Positions 7,970 to 43,726 of a DNA stretch of 64,000 nt are shown here, in pieces. How positions within the stretch are numbered: position 1 is the first letter of the stretch; every line of letters starts with the position of its first letter. The position numbers were made by a program, and so were the translations under genes. The notes beneath the pieces were generated by a model. It made no database searches. It had not been told where the DNA came from and worked only from the letters and a program-made list of their open reading frames with translations. Source of the stretch: Cupriavidus pinatubonensis (GTDB lineage: Bacteria > Pseudomonadota > Gammaproteobacteria > Burkholderiales > Burkholderiaceae); the NCBI RefSeq assembly GCF_019602855.1, contig NZ_CP080769.1, forward strand, positions 248,001 through 312,000. The letters are read 5' to 3'.

Positions 7970-9100
7970 TTACTCCACGCTGACCGCAACTTCAAACCCA
8001 TGCTGCTTCAGCAATGCATGGCGCCGGGCCTGGTCCAGATCGCTGGCGACCATTTCTGCGATCATCTCGTCCAGCGTGATCTCCGGCTCCCAGCCAAGCC
8101 TGGCCTTGGCCTTGGCCGGGTCCCCCAGCAGTGTTTCCACCTCGGCCGGACGGAAATACCGCGGATCGACCTTGACAATCACGTCACCGACGGCCAGAGC
8201 CGGTGCCTTGTCACCGCTGATCGCTGCTACCACGGCCACCTCGTCTTCACCCTTCCCCTCAAATCGCAGCCTGATCCCCAGCTGACTGGCGCTTCGGTTG
8301 ATGAACTCCCGCACGCTCACTTGCTTGCCCGTCGCAATGACGAAGTCTTCCGGTTGCTCCTGTTGCAGCATCAGCCATTGCATGCGCACATAGTCGTGCG
8401 CGTGCCCCCAGTCCCGAAGTGAATCCATATTGCCCATGTACAGGCAGTTCTCCAGGCCTTGTGCGATGTTTGACAGGCCGCGGGTAACCTTGCGCGTCAC
8501 GAAGGTTTCACCGCGACGCGGGCTTTCGTGGTTGAACAGTATCCCGTTGCAGGCATACATGCCGTAGGACTCCCGGTAGTTCACGGTAATCCAGTAGGCA
8601 TACATCTTTGCTGCGGCATACGGGCTGCGCGGATAGAACGGGGTGGTTTCTTTTTGCGGAATCTCCTGCACCAGGCCATACAACTCCGACGTGGATGCCT
8701 GGTAAAAGCGCGTCTTCTTCTCCAGGCCAAGGATCCGGATCGCTTCGAGGAGACGCAGCGTGCCGAGCGCATCCACGTCTGCCGTGTATTCCGGGGACTC
8801 GAAGCTCACGGCCACGTGGCTTTGGGCACCCAGGTTGTAGATCTCATCCGGCTGGGTCTGCTGCACGATCCGGATCAGATTGGTACTGTCGCTCAGGTCG
8901 CCATAGTGCAGCACAAAGTTCCGGTGGCTGACATGAGGATCCTGGTAGATGTGATCCACGCGCGAGGTGTTGAACGAGCTGGCCCGGCGCTTGATGCCGT
9001 GAACGATGTATCCCTTCTCAAGCAGAAATTCGGCCAGGTAAGACCCATCCTGGCCCGTGATGCCGGTGATGAGTGCGGTCTTTTGAGTCGTCTTGGTCAT
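7970..9100 (-). CDS. gmd: GDP-mannose 4,6-dehydratase
   Basis: A 376-residue protein. It has the NAD(P) loop TGITGQDG at residues 12-19, the conserved STSE at 136-139 and Tyr161/Lys165 in YAAAK, together with GDP-mannose dehydratase hallmarks such as [16 protein letters not shown]. It converts GDP-D-mannose to GDP-4-keto-6-deoxy-D-mannose, feeding Fcl. Upstream is manC, which makes the GDP-mannose, 31 bases away. The start is an ATG at 9098-9100. Length is normal and all catalytic residues are present. Confidence 0.96.
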
Positions 9101-33590: not shown

Positions 33591-35324
33591 TCAATGGCCA
33601 GTGAGCCGCAGGCCAAGCAGCAACATTACGCAGAGTGCGAGCAACGCCGTGACTGACTGCCAGAAGACAACCGGGTTGCGCTCCAGGAGCGCGGTCCGAC
33701 GGTGATTCTCATATTGACCCCCCGGGGTGCGCAGGTCCTGGATGAACTCGGAGACCGCCTCCTGCCGCTTCCTCGCGCAGGGGTGCAACGCCCTGCGCAA
33801 CACCGCGTCGATCCAAGGGGGCAGTTCAGGCCGCCGCTCGCGCGCTGCGACATATCGCAGGCGTCGTAGATCACTCTCGGTGCGTAGGCGTGTCACCTGC
33901 AGACCATAGGGCAAATGCCCGGTTAGCATCTGATAGGTGATTACGGCCAGCGAGAATAGATCCGACGCGGTGCAGCCGCGGTGCCCCAGAAAGTACTCCG
34001 GGGCGGTATATTGCAAGGAACCCACCAACGCTTGCGCGTGTCGGCTGCTTGTGCCTTCGGCCAGGCCGGCCACATGCACTGCCGCGAAGTCGATGATTTT
34101 CACGGTCCCGGTGCGGTCTATCATCACGTTCTCAGGCCGCAAGTCTCGGTGCAGCATTTCACGACGATGAAAGGCTTGCAGCCCTTTGGCGACCTGTTCG
34201 ATGATCTGACGTACCGTGTCGAGGTCGGGAGTGGGATGGTCTATCATCCATTGCCGCAGCGTATGACCGTCAACATATTCCATGGCTACGTGCAAATACT
34301 GTCGTGGACGATCGATTGCATGGGGCTTGAGCACATGCGCGTTATCGATCCTGCGGGCTACCCATTCCTCCATTAGAAAGCCGTCAAGATAGTCCGGATC
34401 ATCGCGCAGATCGATGGAAGGCGTTTTCAGCGCGACATGTCGGCCATTGTGCTGATCCACTGCCAAGTACACATGGCTGCGTGAACTCGCATGGAGTTCG
34501 CGCACGATGTGATAGCCATCAAAGTGCATGCGCGGTTGCAGCAGCGGGGGCAGTGTCAGGTGCCCGCGTTGACGATGAATGTCGCGGGCATCGATATCCG
34601 GCAAATCATCCACGCGAACCAACTGGACAGTAACATTATCGTTGCTGCCTCGCGCCAACGCAGTGGCCACCAGCACCCCCGAGGCGGCATCAAGGTCATC
34701 GGGGTGTGCGTCCAAGGCCTGGCGCACGGTTGCGCCATCAAGATGCTCATAGGCGCCATCTGAGGCAAGGAGATAAACCTCGCCAACTTCAGCGCGCCAA
34801 CAGCGATAGTCAATCTCAACAGTGGGGCCCACGCCTAGCGCACGCCCCAGGTAAGACTCGACTGAGGACACACGGATACGATGGTCTTCCGTGAGTTGTT
34901 CCCACGCTTGTGAATGCAGCCGGTAGATGCGCGAGTCGCCGATATGAAATAGGTGTACCTCGCGCCCCTTGAAGATGAGGGCACTGAAGGTGCAGACGTA
35001 GCCGCGGTCCCGGTCGAAACGCGCATCGCTGCGCTGGGTCTGCGCGTGCAGCCACGAATTGATTGCCGCCAGCACACATTGTGCCGCGCGGCGCACAGTC
35101 CACGACTCCGCAGTGCAATAATAGTCGTCGAGGAAGGTGCGGACAGCCGCAGCGCTGGCCACGTGGCTGACCGCGCTGCTGCCGATGCCATCGGCCAGCG
35201 CGACGGCGATGCCCTTGGTGCCAAGTCGCGGTGCGTTAGGGAGCATCGCGCCATGGAAGTCCTGGTTGATGCGCTTGCGCCCCGCTTCCGAATGCTGGCC
35301 GATCGAAAGGCGCAAGGCCCTCAT
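33591..35324 (-). CDS. Bifunctional PP2C-type phosphatase / Ser-Thr protein kinase, membrane anchored
   Basis: The 577-residue product starts at ATG 35324, one base after the transporter stop (TGATATGA). The PP2C domain (about 1-240) has NQDFHG, ALADGIG, HIGDSRIYR, ASDGAYEHL and GSNDNVTV. The Hanks-type kinase domain (about 260-540) has VALKT, LHRDLRPENVM near 388, and IIDFA near 409 where DFG is usual, then APEY. A C-terminal hydrophobic helix (about 553-573) anchors it. Proteins of this build lie beside nitrate/nitrite transporter genes in pseudomonads and relatives. It probably modulates nitrogen-oxyanion uptake or assimilation, but its target is not known. The DFG-to-DFA change leaves Mg-binding Asp in place. 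Confidence 0.9.
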   Translation of the reverse strand: MRALRLSIGQHSEAGRKRINQDFHGAMLPNAPRLGTKGIAVALADGIGSSAVSHVASAAAVRTFLDDYYCTAESWTVRRAAQCVLAAINSWLHAQTQRSDARFDRDRGYVCTFSALIFKGREVHLFHIGDSRIYRLHSQAWEQLTEDHRIRVSSVESYLGRALGVGPTVEIDYRCWRAEVGEVYLLASDGAYEHLDGATVRQALDAHPDDLDAASGVLVATALARGSNDNVTVQLVRVDDLPDIDARDIHRQRGHLTLPPLLQPRMHFDGYHIVRELHASSRSHVYLAVDQHNGRHVALKTPSIDLRDDPDYLDGFLMEEWVARRIDNAHVLKPHAIDRPRQYLHVAMEYVDGHTLRQWMIDHPTPDLDTVRQIIEQVAKGLQAFHRREMLHRDLRPENVMIDRTGTVKIIDFAAVHVAGLAEGTSSRHAQALVGSLQYTAPEYFLGHRGCTASDLFSLAVITYQMLTGHLPYGLQVTRLRTESDLRRLRYVAARERRPELPPWIDAVLRRALHPCARKRQEAVSEFIQDLRTPGGQYENHRRTALLERNPVVFWQSVTALLALCVMLLLGLRLTGH

Positions 35325-35325
35325 A

Positions 35326-36138
35326 TCAAGCCAGGACGCGCTTGGGCGCAGTCTTGTAGTGAGTCGAGTACAGCGTTGCACCGACGAACGTCAAGCCACC
35401 TACGACGTTGCCCAGCACCGTCGGAAGTTCATTCCAAAGCAGGTAGTCCATCAGCGTAAACTTGCCGCCGAGCATCAGGCCCGAGGGAAAGAGGAACATA
35501 TTTACGACAGAGTGTTCGAACCCCATATAAAAGAAAACTAGTATGGGCATCCACATGGCAATGACCTTGCCGGAAACTGAAGTTGACATCATCGCCGCGA
35601 CGACTCCTGTGGAGACCATCCAGTTACACATGACGGCGCGGATGAAGAGCGTAATCATGCCTGCGGCGCCGTGGGCAGCGTAGCCAACCGTGCGGCTTTC
35701 GCCGATACCTCCGATTTTCTGGCCGATCAGGTTCGGGGCCTCGCTAAAGCCGAACGTGAAGATGATGGCCATGAACAGCGCCACAGTGAGTGCGCCCGCG
35801 AAATTGCCGCAGAACACCAGTGCCCAGTTGCGCATCACGCCACCCCACGTGGCGCCTGGCCGCTTGTCGAGTACAGCGAGCGGAGCCAGCGTAAAGACAC
35901 CGGTCAACAGGTCGAAGCCCAGCAGATAGAGCATGCAGAACCCGACCGGGAACAACAATGAACCGATCAGAGGGTTGCCGGTATTGACGTTGACACTGAC
36001 TGCGAACGCGGCGGACAACGCCAGGATTGCGCCAGCCATATAGGCTCGGATAAGGGTATCCCGGGTGGACATCAGGAGCTTGGATTCGCCGGCATCGACC
36101 ATCTTGGCGACAAACTCAGCAGGGGCTAGATAAGCCAT
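35326..36138 (-). CDS. Formate/nitrite transporter (FNT) family protein, probably nitrite channel
   Basis: A 270-residue protein with six membrane segments. The FNT filter segment MGFEHSVVNMFLFPSG near residue 200 contains the central His. FNT pentamers pass formate, nitrite or hydrosulfide anions. Nitrite or nitrate-linked use is favoured because it forms a two-gene operon with the phosphatase/kinase fusion and because the leader at 36176-36295 resembles nitrate-responsive ANTAR leaders. The start ATG has GAAGGA upstream. Substrate is inferred, not shown. Confidence 0.88.
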   Translation of the reverse strand: MAYLAPAEFVAKMVDAGESKLLMSTRDTLIRAYMAGAILALSAAFAVSVNVNTGNPLIGSLLFPVGFCMLYLLGFDLLTGVFTLAPLAVLDKRPGATWGGVMRNWALVFCGNFAGALTVALFMAIIFTFGFSEAPNLIGQKIGGIGESRTVGYAAHGAAGMITLFIRAVMCNWMVSTGVVAAMMSTSVSGKVIAMWMPILVFFYMGFEHSVVNMFLFPSGLMLGGKFTLMDYLLWNELPTVLGNVVGGLTFVGATLYSTHYKTAPKRVLA

Positions 36139-36175
36139 CGGGCATTCCTTCGAACGTTAGGGGCAGAACAAAAAG

Positions 36176-36231
36176 AAAAAAGGCGTCCGCATCCGGGCAT
36201 CAGCCGTATGCTGTTGCCCGGGCGGGACGCC
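36176..36231 (-). terminator. Leader terminator upstream of the FNT gene
   Basis: On the minus strand GGCGTCC (36231-36225) pairs with GGACGCC (36188-36182), and inside it CCGGGCA pairs with TGCCCGG (36215-36221 with 36193-36199). T6-C-T4 follows at once. It lies about 40 bases before the FNT start, so it must be bypassed for expression. Confidence 0.85.
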
Positions 36232-36295
36232 GTTGTCCACAATTTCGGTCCCCGCGTTGCCGATGATCAGGGACAGTAGAGGCCGCCGTTGGCCT
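36225..36295 (-). promoter_or_regulatory. Putative ANTAR-type tandem-hairpin antiterminator
   Basis: On the minus strand the first hairpin is AGGCC-AACGGC-GGCCT (36295-36280) and the second GGAC-AACGGC-GTCC (36238-36225), separated by 41 nt. Both loops are the same hexanucleotide with A at position 1 and G at position 4, the known recognition rule for ANTAR antiterminators such as NasR, NasT and EutV. The 3' arm of hairpin two is part of the terminator 5' arm, so binding of hairpin two would block the terminator. The cognate ANTAR protein is not in the window. Confidence 0.7.
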
Positions 36296-36938
36296 GCTGA
36301 TCTTGGGTTATGCATCTTCCGTGCCCGAGCGCGTAGAAGGTGTTTGTCCGTTTCCCGGGCATTTATGCCGAAGATTGGCACGGAGCTGGTGCAAGTCCGT
36401 TAGCTGGGCTCTACCCTGGTGCGGGCGCCGTGTGTCTCATGCCACGGCGATGCGCAGACAGCCTGAAAAGGACCGCAGCGGTTGCTGCCTTGATCTTTGG
36501 CACTGCAGCAATACCGGTCCGACCTATAGTGAAACTCCGGTATTGCTTCGTACACGCGCATAAGTACGCGCTCGCAGATGGGATCCACATCATCGTCTGC
36601 CTCAAGCCCTCATCGAAGCAGGCTGGCCGGTGAGTTACCACGTGCCAGGCACCGTGACCGCCGGTTGGCCCGGTGTACTATTTTGTGGAGGTCCCATGCT
36701 GGCGCCAAGCCGCCGAGGGGTCTCCCTTGGCCTGGCCTTAACCCCTCGTCTTGTGCGAGGGGTTTTTTCGTTTTATGGCTGGGTCAGAACAGTGGGCGCC
36801 TTGGGCTTCGCGTCTGTGCCAACCGAACTGCCCCCTAGCTACGTCATCGGTCCTCTGGCCAGTTTGAGTCAGTCATGGACCTCTCGTCGGAAGACTGGTT
36901 GGCACGCTTAACTGGCGCCCTCGCGGTATCTAAACAAA
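36296..36938. other. Non-coding stretch rich in inverted repeats
   Basis: No convincing gene. GCAATACCGG (36508-36517) and CCGGTATTGC (36537-36546) form a perfect 10-bp inverted repeat, while the left arm can also pair with GGACCG...GGTTGCTGC at about 36470-36488, giving mutually exclusive folds. A strong plus-strand terminator follows at 36740-36768. Confidence 0.45.
36740..36768 (+). terminator. Strong Rho-independent terminator without an obvious gene
   Basis: AACCCCTCG (36740-36748) and CGAGGGGTT (36756-36764) form a 9-bp stem with a 7-base loop and a run of six T. About 55 bases upstream are a possible -10 TACTAT (36676-36681), a -35 GTGACC (36654-36659) with 16-base spacing, and GGAGG followed by ATG at 36696. 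No complete gene lies before it. Confidence 0.75.
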
Positions 36939-37571: not shown

Positions 37572-38681
37572 ATGACTCAATTCGCCATAAAGATCGGCGT
37601 CATCGCCGAGCAGACCGGCCCGCTTTCCTTCATGGGGATCGCCGATGCCAATGTGGCGAGGATGGTGGTCGACGACATCAATGCGAGCGGCGGCCTGCTC
37701 GGCCGGGAGATCGTGCTGTGCCTCGAGGACGGCGCGACGACAGATAGCGTGGCAATAGAGAAGGCCACCAAGCTAATCGAGGTCGATCGGGTCGACGTGC
37801 TGTTCGGGGGGATCTACAGCTCGACGCGGCAAGCCATCAAAGGTCCGGTCAGGAAGAGCGGCAAGCTGTACATCTACCCCGAGCAGTACGAAGGTCAGGA
37901 GGCGGACCCCCTAGTCTTCTGTACTGGCCCGGTGCCGGCTCAGCAGCTCGAGCCCTTCATTCCCTGGCTGATGCAAACGACTGGGGCGACGACGTTCTAC
38001 CTGCCGTCGGCCGACTACATCTGGCCACATGTGATGAACAGAAAAGTGCGTGACCTGGTCAATGCGAACGGTGGCAAGATCGTCGGGGAGGAGTACCACC
38101 CTCTCGATCACATGGACTATCGCGAGACGGTGAGAAAGATCGCGGCCAGCGGTGCTGACGTCGTTTTCAATACGGTTGTTCCGCCTGGCCTCACGCCATT
38201 CTTTGAGGAACTCTACGATTCCGGCTTTCAGAAGCGTGGCGGCAAGCTCGTCTGCACCTACTTCGATGAGAATTTCCTCAATCTGGTGCCGGCCGAGAAG
38301 GTCGATGGTCTCTACGGCTGCCTGGACTATTACCAGGAGGTCGACGATCCGTTCAGCCGCGATCTGCTGGCCCGCTACAACAAGCTGTTCCCCGGCGGCG
38401 CGCAGTTCACTGCCGGCAGCGCTTGCACCGGCCTCTACCGCGGCATGAAGCTCTGGGAGGCTGCGGTTCATGAAGCGGGCACCGTCGACCAAGACAGGGT
38501 GATCGCGGCGCTCGACCACGCTAGGATCGAGCAAGGCCCCGGTGGCCCGGCGGAGATGGTGCCCGGGCAGCATCACGTCCGTATGAATATGTACATCGCC
38601 CAGGCGATAGACAGCCGGTTTAAGGTCGTCAAGGCGCTGGGCGCCATCGATCCACAAGAACAGATCATGGGTGGTCTTTGA
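37572..38681 (+). CDS. AmiC/FmdD-type amide- or urea-binding protein lacking a signal peptide
   Basis: A 369-residue type I periplasmic-binding fold. It begins MTQFAIKIGVIAEQTGPLS, with the ATG at 37572 preceded by GAGGAGG, so no signal peptide is present. Blocks such as LFGGIYSSTRQA, YIYPEQYEGQE and TAGSACTGLYRGM resemble the branched-chain amide/urea-binding group (Peripla_BP_5). Transport relatives are exported; AmiC is cytosolic and holds the antiterminator AmiR inactive until amide binds. The missing signal and absence of ABC permease or ATPase genes favour a sensor role, but no amiR-like gene is visible. Could also be a transporter relic that lost its signal sequence. Confidence 0.75.
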   Translation: MTQFAIKIGVIAEQTGPLSFMGIADANVARMVVDDINASGGLLGREIVLCLEDGATTDSVAIEKATKLIEVDRVDVLFGGIYSSTRQAIKGPVRKSGKLYIYPEQYEGQEADPLVFCTGPVPAQQLEPFIPWLMQTTGATTFYLPSADYIWPHVMNRKVRDLVNANGGKIVGEEYHPLDHMDYRETVRKIAASGADVVFNTVVPPGLTPFFEELYDSGFQKRGGKLVCTYFDENFLNLVPAEKVDGLYGCLDYYQEVDDPFSRDLLARYNKLFPGGAQFTAGSACTGLYRGMKLWEAAVHEAGTVDQDRVIAALDHARIEQGPGGPAEMVPGQHHVRMNMYIAQAIDSRFKVVKALGAIDPQEQIMGGL

Positions 38682-41596: not shown

Positions 41597-43726
41597 ATGG
41601 TCCGCTGGTCGCTAAAATCCCGGGTAGTCGCCTCAACCGTCGTTGTGGTTCTTCTCCTCGCGGTTCTGCTGATACTGGTTGCACGTCATTACGTCTTCGC
41701 AAACCTAGAGGATTCGTTGCAGGCCCAGCAGGACGCACAGGTCAGACTGGTCGCCGAGCAACTCGACGACAAGTTCGAAGTACGTGCTGTCATCCTACGC
41801 CGGCTTGCCGACCATCTTGCCCCGCTGTTGGACCACGGCCCAGCGGAACTGAAGCGAATTGCTGAGATGGCCGCTCCAACTCCTGAGTCGTTCGATGGGG
41901 TATTTCTTGCTTGGCCGGACGGTAAGCGGGCATTCGAGACTGGGACGAGAGACGAGGGCCCTGATGTCTCGGGCCGACACTACTTTCGGGACGCCCTGCG
42001 CGGCGCGTCTGTTGTCATTGCCGAACCCGTGATGACCAAGGTAACTGGCGGGCCAGGCGTCGCCATGGCCATACCGGTGCGCTCGGTTGACGGACGCGTA
42101 CGGGCGGTTCTTGTCGGGAGGCTGGACCTCCGCCGCGAAGACTTCCTCTTGGCACTGTCGCGCAGCCGTATCGGCACAACAGGAACCTATTGCCTTGTCT
42201 CGTCGGGGCGTTCCCCTCGCTACGTCGTGCACGTTGATCCGGCAAAAGTGCTCCAGCCAGCCAGCTCTGAAGATGAGTCATGCGGAACCGATACCGCACG
42301 CTCCATATGGGAATTCGCTTGGCCCACGCGACCCATCGTTGCTCGACACGGGCTGGCAAAAGTGCTCCAGCCAGCCAGCTCTGAAGATGAGTCATGCGGA
42401 ACCGATACCGCACGCTCCATATGGGAATTCGCTTGGCCCACGCGACCCATCGTTGCTCGACACGGGCTTGAAACAGCAGGGTGGGAACTGGTTGCCGCAC
42501 TCCCGGCAAGAGAAGCCTACTCACCCATCACCCGTGCCAGGCTCAGGATTCTCACTGCCGTGGGCGCAGCGTTGGCTATTTCTGGCTTGCTGATGTGGCG
42601 GGTAGCCAGACGCCTGGTGGCTCCATTGGAGAGCCTGGAACGTGCCGTGCAGGAAAGTGCGACGGACTTGTCGAGGTGCGCTTCACTTCCGACCTCAAGA
42701 CAGGACGAAATCGGCTCCTTAGCCAGGACGTTTTCGAGAGTTATGGGCCAGCTTGCCGAACGCACGAGTTTTCTGCTGGCTGCAAGGAAGTTGGCAGAGG
42801 AACGGGAGGCACGTATTCATGCCATAGCCAATCACATACCGGACCTGGTTGCCTACCTTGACTTGGACGAACGCTACGTGTTCGTCAACCACGCGTATGA
42901 ACAGCGATTCGGGGTATCTGCCGATGAAATCATCGGACTGACGCCCTTGCATCTGTGGGGCGCCGCCGTTTATGCAAAAGTGATAGGGCCGCCCCTGCGG
43001 CTCGCGCTGTCAGGCGAACTGGTTAAGTTTGAGGCTGAGCATCTCTACGAGAACCATCCTGTTTGCTTTGATGTCACTTATCAACCCGCCTGGAGCGCGA
43101 CGGCCGACAAGGTGGTTGGCGTGCATGTCTTTGCCCGAGATATCACCGCAGAGCGTCAGAAGATGCGCAGCCTTGAGCAGACGACCATGTCAGATTATTT
43201 AACCGGCCTGCTCAATCGGAAGGGCTTTGACCGACGCCTGGAGTCAGCGATGGTACAAAGCGAGGAAGACTCAAAAATAATGGCGTTGCTCCTTGTCGAC
43301 ATTGATAACTTCAAGCTTGTAAATGACACTTATGGTCACCCCGTTGGGGATAAGCTTCTGAACGTCGTCGCGACTCGCCTGGAGTCCTGTGCTGGCGAAA
43401 CTTGCGCCGTTGCCCGGGTAGGCGGCGATGAGTTTGCTGTGATTTTGGCGGACGTCTTGACGTCGGATGAGGTGCTGCGCGTCGCCCAGGCAATCCTATC
43501 GGCGACCTGCGAAACCTTCATTCTCAATGGCCACCAGATCGCATGCAGCACCAGCGTTGGCGCGGCGCTCAAAAACCCCCGCGACAACAACACTCGAAAT
43601 GAACTCCTCCTGAAAGCGGACACCGCCCTTTACTCGGCAAAACATTCCGGCAAAGCCAGGTTCATTGTCTTCGGCGAGTCGCAGACGATTGCTTCGGATT
43701 CCAACGACCACCCGAGAAGTGATTGA
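41597..43726 (+). CDS. Membrane diguanylate cyclase: dCache-like sensor, HAMP, PAS, GGDEF
   Basis: A 709-residue protein. TM1 spans about 8-30, followed by a periplasmic dCache-like sensor (about 31-312), TM2 about 315-335, HAMP, a PAS domain beginning near IHAIANHIPDLVAYLDLDE and a GGDEF domain (DYLTGLLNRKGF ... RVGGDEFAVIL, GGDEF at about 609-613). The active-site motif is intact. The inhibitory RxxD site just before it is absent (AGET at that place), so product inhibition may be weak. The sensor contains an exact 38-residue tandem repeat (residues about 216-253 and 254-291). It makes c-di-GMP, which could act on BcsA, encoded about 25 kb away; this link is inference. Confidence 0.93.
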   Translation: MVRWSLKSRVVASTVVVVLLLAVLLILVARHYVFANLEDSLQAQQDAQVRLVAEQLDDKFEVRAVILRRLADHLAPLLDHGPAELKRIAEMAAPTPESFDGVFLAWPDGKRAFETGTRDEGPDVSGRHYFRDALRGASVVIAEPVMTKVTGGPGVAMAIPVRSVDGRVRAVLVGRLDLRREDFLLALSRSRIGTTGTYCLVSSGRSPRYVVHVDPAKVLQPASSEDESCGTDTARSIWEFAWPTRPIVARHGLAKVLQPASSEDESCGTDTARSIWEFAWPTRPIVARHGLETAGWELVAALPAREAYSPITRARLRILTAVGAALAISGLLMWRVARRLVAPLESLERAVQESATDLSRCASLPTSRQDEIGSLARTFSRVMGQLAERTSFLLAARKLAEEREARIHAIANHIPDLVAYLDLDERYVFVNHAYEQRFGVSADEIIGLTPLHLWGAAVYAKVIGPPLRLALSGELVKFEAEHLYENHPVCFDVTYQPAWSATADKVVGVHVFARDITAERQKMRSLEQTTMSDYLTGLLNRKGFDRRLESAMVQSEEDSKIMALLLVDIDNFKLVNDTYGHPVGDKLLNVVATRLESCAGETCAVARVGGDEFAVILADVLTSDEVLRVAQAILSATCETFILNGHQIACSTSVGAALKNPRDNNTRNELLLKADTALYSAKHSGKARFIVFGESQTIASDSNDHPRSD
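42241..42468 (+). repeat. Exact in-frame 114-bp tandem duplication within the cyclase sensor
   Basis: Bases 42241-42354 and 42355-42468 are identical. The unit encodes 38 residues starting AKVLQPASSEDESCG and ending VARHGL. Since 114 is divisible by three, the frame is kept. Confidence 0.97.

Follow-up and report, generated by a model that had tools for sequence, protein, structure and literature searches.

The 64,000-nucleotide stretch of Cupriavidus DNA analysed here (the window; its source genome is called G000) carries genes for a formate/nitrite transporter (FNT) family channel and a PP2C phosphatase-kinase fusion, and the question raised by this locus is how the transcription of the pair is controlled and by which protein. 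In our study, the leader preceding the FNT gene was found to be built like the RNA targets of ANTAR proteins. It is very probably an antitermination switch, in which transcription would start at a sigma54 promoter and NasT would allow read-through into the FNT and PP2C-kinase genes on nitrate or nitrite.

Architecture of the leader and its genes

Direct reading of the minus strand from 36325 down to 36138 gives, in this order, a sigma54-type element, a first hairpin (HP1), a 41-nt linker, a second hairpin (HP2), an intrinsic terminator with its T6CT5 tract, an AAGGA motif and the ATG of the FNT gene (Table 1). Both hexaloops have A at position 1 and G at position 4, as the sequence-only reading of this DNA had noticed for two minus-strand hairpins sharing the loop AACGGC. 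The same reading had placed the second hairpin over the 5' arm of a strong terminator, and this was borne out: positions 36231-36225 are common to the 3' end of HP2 and the 5' arm of the terminator, where GGCGTCC pairs with GGACGCC at 36188-36182, and the terminator stretch 36175-36240 (66 nt) folds at -38.0 kcal/mol (z -5.78), none of 200 shuffles being as stable. The half containing HP1 and HP2, folded alone, was not more stable than its shuffles (z 0.54). The predicted T-tract was also found, although it is T6CT5 and not T6CT4 as first read, and 43 nt separate the end of the stem from the ATG of FNT, where about 40 bases had been given.

Table 1. Positions of the leader features and of the neighbouring genes in the window, with two related leaders from other genomes
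Feature	Position	Strand	Basis
Possible NtrC site, TGCACCAGCTCCGTGC	36378..36393	-	loose pattern, candidate only
Sigma54 (-24/-12) promoter-like element, GG-N10-GC, GGCACGGAAGATGC	36312..36325	-	direct reading
HP1 (P1), stem AGGCC/GGCCT, loop AACGGC	36280..36295	-	direct reading and pair counts
HP2 (P2), stem GGAC/GTCC, loop AACGGC, antiterminator hairpin	36225..36238	-	direct reading; stem pairs in 60/60 distinct rows
Intrinsic terminator stem, mutually exclusive with HP2	36182..36231	-	folding; pairing in aligned rows
Terminator U-tract, T6CT5	36170..36181	-	direct reading
FNT family channel, 270 aa	35326..36138	-	PF01226, 210.7 bits
PP2C phosphatase - Ser/Thr kinase fusion	33591..35324	-	PF13672 and PF00069
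Periplasmic-binding-type protein, start 1.4 kb from FNT start	37572-38681	opposite to FNT	PF13433/PF13458
FNT leaders without visible HP1, in G004 and G009	L039 8673-8740; L040 5106-5174		by eye

The upstream element was named sigma54 promoter-like from the -24/-12 consensus, and transcription would be expected to start near 36300. The possible NtrC site further upstream was picked by a loose pattern based on the NtrC consensus. In Klebsiella oxytoca, nasF is under sigma54/NtrC control. The promoter element and the sister leaders described below go beyond the sequence-only reading.

The best sequence match of the FNT protein in the PDB is LCIA (9v2a, E 2.3e-30), with FocA and NirC ranking behind it, and in NCBIfam the protein scores under the curated cut-offs for fnt, FocA and NirC; its substrate is therefore not settled by name, and nitrite is suggested by the context. 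The PP2C-kinase gene probably begins at an ATG 1 nt past the FNT stop codon, the listed reading frame beginning at the GTG at 35381. Elsewhere in the window, at 41597-43726, a segment of 38 residues (AKVLQPASSEDESCGTD...) is exactly duplicated in tandem in a protein that appears by eye to be of GGDEF type.

Conservation of the hairpins and the promoter element

A pair of AxxGxx hairpins whose second member overlaps a terminator occurs once in the window against a mean of 0.15 per dinucleotide shuffle. The shape alone is only moderately improbable, suggestive and not decisive, because it was seen in 7 of 60 such shuffles; with a sigma54-like element upstream it was seen in 1 of 60. The case for the leader rests on conservation, not on shape.

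A covariance model (R1) was trained on eight leaders, including all three of G000, and at E<=0.1 it matches in 58 of 60 Cupriavidus genomes, some of these matches being weak. An alignment of 61 leaders was made with one match per source, the 61 sources being picked for having an R1 match; it has 60 distinct rows. In the HP1 loop, A1 is present in 57 leaders and G4 and A2 in all 61, and in the HP2 loop A1 is present in 51, G4 in 59 and A2 in 61; position 1 is G in 4/61 of the HP1 loops and in 10/61 of the HP2 loops. A negative covariance score together with unconserved hexaloops had been named beforehand as the outcome that would speak against ANTAR control. This outcome did not arise, the loops being conserved in these 61 leaders, although no Rfam family reaches its threshold here.

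The alignment was fitted to HP1 and the terminator, to the advantage of pairs in these two, and its rows are related. Over the 60 distinct rows, 99.1% of the HP1 and HP2 cells are paired against at most 55.6% when the pairing is slid, and 98.6% of the terminator cells are paired. Double-change cells in HP1 and HP2 number 50 against 16.1 in shuffles, with 0 of 500 shuffles as high. On two measures that suffer less from the relatedness of the rows there was no gain over shuffles in the 60 rows: 4 pairs show a double change against 3.2 (188/500), and further pair types number 10 against 10.1 (399/500). In the alignment of the eight leaders the same measures gave 3 against 0.4 (2/500) and 7 against 6.0 (73/500). 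The compensating changes sit in HP1, the stricter measures being mixed, and HP2 and the terminator are near-invariant, with no covariation of their own over the 60 distinct rows.

The promoter element is not included in the R1 model. The pattern GG[CT][AC]N8GC was found to begin 23-29 nt 5' of the leader in 61/61 of the alignment, whereas 108 of 1141 control windows have it, and the sigma54 pattern was likewise present at 11/11 leaders of a smaller set including G004, G009 and G069. A loose NtrC-type pattern occurs in 5 of 9 FNT upstream regions (G000, G052, G055, G057 and G069) and is absent from those of G007, G037, G004 and G009.

The sequence-only reading had proposed a covariance search as a check. 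R1, which was built here, finds the leader, the leader itself being in its training set, whereas the Rfam families stay below threshold: at gathering score no family was matched in the 64-kb window, nor in six of the 13 loci first chosen. The narK RNA family (RF03032) aligns across the promoter element and HP1 with 22.1 bits, under its threshold of 43.2. The Pseudomonas sRNA P11 (RF00625) aligns across HP2 and the terminator with 15.0 bits, under its threshold of 70, and on the opposite, wrong strand it scores slightly higher (15.8 bits). The 5' part of the narK RNA consensus, GGCaCAgcucUUGC, compared with 36254-36325 on the minus strand of the window, resembles a sigma54 -24/-12 promoter, so this family seems to hold untranscribed DNA together with the ANTAR hairpin P1; the P11 family seems to cover P2 and the terminator.

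Two variants of the leader were also seen. In the leader adjacent to nasT there are often three hexaloop hairpins in tandem and not two (for example with loops AACGAG, AACGCG and AACGGC), as at L002 17207-17340 (minus strand), which is outside the 61 aligned leaders, and in the nrt-type leaders of L101-L123 and L211-L213. At least three loosely defined hairpins were counted in 26 of the 61 aligned leaders, 22 of which read as three in tandem ending in GGAC-AACGGC-GTCC. Two Burkholderia FNT leaders behind nasR (L162 and L170; 5855-5972) have the HP2 loop AACAGC, with A at position 4 (2/61), and at both of these loci no kinase match was found.

The candidate reading protein and the proposed switch

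The source genome has 7,548,664 bases in 4 contigs, the window lying in contig C4 (689,000 bases), and it was found to carry three leaders on three contigs: one before the FNT gene, one between nasT and an NrtA-like gene, and one 5' of a narK-like gene in a nitrate assimilation cluster. They score 121.5, 87.0 and 80.4 bits with R1, all three being in its training set; R1 also hits the window leader on its reverse strand, with 25.3 bits, as a fourth match. HP2 (GGACAACGGCGTCC) is identical in all three leaders. On contig C1, nirB lies between the narK-like gene, which scores 308.6 bits with the NarK-family model (cut-off 311.7), and a nitrate-reductase-like molybdoprotein for which all models remain below cut-off.

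A single ANTAR match (PF03861, 68.9 bits) was found in the whole genome. It is a NasT-like protein of 214 aa encoded on contig C2, and the ANTAR domain is its only Pfam hit, no Pfam receiver domain being reported. Its best PDB matches are the response-regulator-type antiterminators 6wsh and 1s8n, the similarity to 6wsh covering residues 34-210. The nasT gene is followed by the ANTAR leader, the NrtA-like gene and, by eye, genes for an ABC permease and ATPase, and the protein is placed with NasT as a receiver-like ANTAR protein adjoining nitrate genes. The NrtA-like protein looks like the transporter NrtA (2g29, E 5.8e-81). It is the only protein of its kind at E<=0.001 in the genome, and no separate NasS was found by this search for NrtA-like proteins, which could let a diverged one escape. 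Either the NrtA-like protein also serves as the sensor for NasT, or a NasS exists that has diverged too far to be picked up in this way. The NIT-ANTAR protein NasR was not found in this genome by the ANTAR profile search.

Since NasT is the sole ANTAR match in the genome, it is the likely reader of the window leader, and the choice of regulator, first left open between NasR, NasT, EutV and an AmiR-like protein, is narrowed to NasT. The tandem A1/G4 hexaloop hairpins, the terminator-exclusive HP2, the conservation in relatives and the ANTAR protein in the genome are sequence features by which an ANTAR target is recognized, and all four were found here. The ANTAR-type control of the FNT and PP2C-kinase genes suggested earlier is further supported by the changes in HP1, by the sister leaders and by the NasR genes standing beside the leader in relatives.

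Published accounts describe NasR as binding an RNA of two hairpins, in which A1 and G4 are preferred (PMC7496416), nitrate or nitrite as dissociating NasS-NasT and freeing NasT, which binds the nasA leader (PMC3795266), and a dual-hairpin model of ANTAR targets (PMC3369931; PMC3369936). The Klebsiella oxytoca nasF leader, as described in PMC7496416 and PMC3369936, likewise has two A1/G4 hexaloop hairpins, the second overlapping a terminator, before a nitrate assimilation operon; it is read by NasR, whereas here no NasR was found, NasT is the sole ANTAR match and the target is an FNT channel with a PP2C-kinase. The Paracoccus denitrificans nasA leader (PMC3795266) shares the regulator type and the setting of nitrate assimilation. 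It differs in that here no separate NasS was found and three leaders stand on three contigs.

The following sequence of events can be proposed from these features. When nitrogen is short, sigma54 polymerase, probably activated by NtrC, would start near 36300. With no signal, the nascent leader would form the terminator and transcription would halt short of the FNT gene. Once nitrate or nitrite had been sensed, NasT would bind the two AACGGC loops, hold HP2 and block the terminator, and the FNT and PP2C-kinase genes would be transcribed alongside two other nitrate operons with the same leader. The leader would then best be read as a two-input gate, in which nitrogen limitation acts through sigma54 and nitrate or nitrite through antitermination.

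Regulators at related loci and their possible exchange

An FNT match was found in 11 of 60 Cupriavidus genomes, eight of them being close orthologues (87-100% identity) and three matching at 31-32%. The orthologue of G052 is split into two frames in a draft assembly. A leader was found by R1 at seven of the eight close orthologues, G004 scoring 27.9 bits and G009 being missed; in these two, HP1 is not visible by eye, and HP2 and the terminator seem to stand alone soon after the sigma54 element.

The eight genomes fall into two groups of four. In G000, G052 (86% complete), G055 and G007, NasT is the only ANTAR match (87-100% identical to that of G000), and 4/4 have HP1, HP2, the terminator and the sigma54 element, G007 having the HP1 loop GATGAC, with G for A at position 1, and a broken U-tract. 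In G057, G037, G004 and G009 a NasR-type protein is encoded 5' of the leader and NasT was not found. This protein matches K. oxytoca NasR (PDB 4akk, E 3.8e-47), and the G057 copy, the one put to Pfam, has both the NIT and the ANTAR domain; G009 has a second ANTAR match, at a locus without a NasT match. Three leaders were counted in each of G000 and G007 and two in each of G052 and G055, the nas leader not being found by R1 in the incomplete G052 or in G055. The nas leader is kept in 4/4 NasR genomes, and G037 and G009 also have an nrt-type leader, with the same HP2, the gene behind these leaders being judged by eye from its first codons.

In a wider comparison, the best 80 of 578 related loci were considered, two of which are from Cupriavidus, and a kinase match was found in 68 of these 80. 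NasR was counted when it lay no more than 2.5 kb 5' of FNT, and the leader when R1 matched 5' of FNT. On these terms 16 of the best 80 have NasR and leader, 2 have NasR only, 4 have the leader only and 58 have neither, so that 16/18 NasR-bearing loci among them have a leader by R1. The count excludes NasR matches lying farther off or downstream (L128, L135, L148 and L167), weak or reverse-strand matches, and five R1 matches in positions other than 5' of FNT (L128 once, L153 and L167 twice each). The NasR-only loci are L189 and L163, the latter with a sequence that by eye resembles the leader. The leader-only loci belong to Cupriavidus sp. IDO (G055), Pandoraea terrae, a Verrucomicrobiaceae MAG and Giesbergeria anulus; NasR is encoded elsewhere in the Giesbergeria genome, and Pandoraea and the MAG have one ANTAR match each, which is NasT-like (40-42% identity). 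In L128, L153 and L167 (about 8720-8890), R1 matches lie downstream of the FNT-kinase pair, so there the pair may adjoin, and not belong to, a leader-controlled operon.

The position of the leader behind nasR in 16 of the best 80 loci would fit the improbable alternative that the window leader is an orphan, a former NasR target that NasT does not read after the loss of NasR. Transcription of the operon would then mostly stop at the terminator or pass it irrespective of nitrate. Retention of all four elements in the four NasT-only Cupriavidus, and the identity of HP2 with that of the two other leaders of the same genome, argue against it. No relic of nasR was found in the window (best match to pieces of NasR at E 7.4) or at the other FNT loci of NasT genomes (best E 2.7, L034). 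A further protein of AmiR-like or EutV-like kind reading the leader for a non-nitrate signal might be suspected from the binding protein encoded on the other strand, and is very unlikely in view of the one PF03861 match of the whole genome, which lies beside the NrtA-like gene. A plain intrinsic terminator with chance hairpins and no antitermination, which the 7 of 60 shuffles and the lack of covariation in HP2 would allow, is hardly credible beside the near-invariant loops and compensating HP1 changes over 61 leaders.

The two groups of Cupriavidus genomes can be compared on a tree of the FNT and kinase proteins. The tree has 29 rows; it includes one in four of the regulator-free loci and omits those whose kinase is short or missing, which removed 6/17 of the NasR loci lying outside the genus. 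G007, with NasT, pairs with the NasR genome G037 as its sister, and G000, G052 and G055 (NasT) are sister to G057 (NasR) together with Pandoraea. Because these branches of the gene tree are well supported, at least two regulator changes are required. Related species seem to have replaced the reader protein of the RNA switch and kept the switch itself. The likely history would be that a nasR-leader-FNT-kinase unit entered NasT genomes and that one of two readers of the same code was then lost. We tentatively propose, with somewhat more doubt than confidence, that the ANTAR hairpin code serves as a common socket, the nrt, nas and FNT regulon of Cupriavidus having changed hands at least twice between NasR, a one-component NIT-ANTAR protein, and the receiver-like NasT while its promoters and RNA targets stayed as they were, and that the NasT side may need no separate NasS.

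The kind of switch is already known, and the regulator exchange on conserved leaders is the interesting part. Predicted ANTAR leaders have been reported in Burkholderia and, separately, 5' of nitrate and nitrite transporters (PMC3369931), and no paper on the regulator exchange or on a Cupriavidus FNT leader was found in the open-licence literature. An FNT channel and a PP2C-kinase would hereby be added to the nitrate/nitrite antitermination regulon. The sister species offer a natural experiment, with one operon, one promoter type and one set of RNA targets under two nitrate sensors, and the exchange makes the cross-reading of targets by NasR and NasT, and the tolerance of loop position 1, testable.

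Two simpler rules were considered and rejected. G at loop position 1 does not mark NasR targets, as NasR genomes carry the HP2 loop AACGGC and the NasT-only G007 has G1 in HP1. Nor are NasR and NasT mutually exclusive within a genome, since both types were found in G017, Acidovorax temperans and Aquabacterium parvum. G017, a Cupriavidus without the FNT gene, combines a NasR-type gene with another ANTAR match of the size of NasT. At L230 5354-8761 (minus strand), the genes next downstream of its NasR-type gene encode proteins with GRQRMLSQR motifs, which look PilJ-like.
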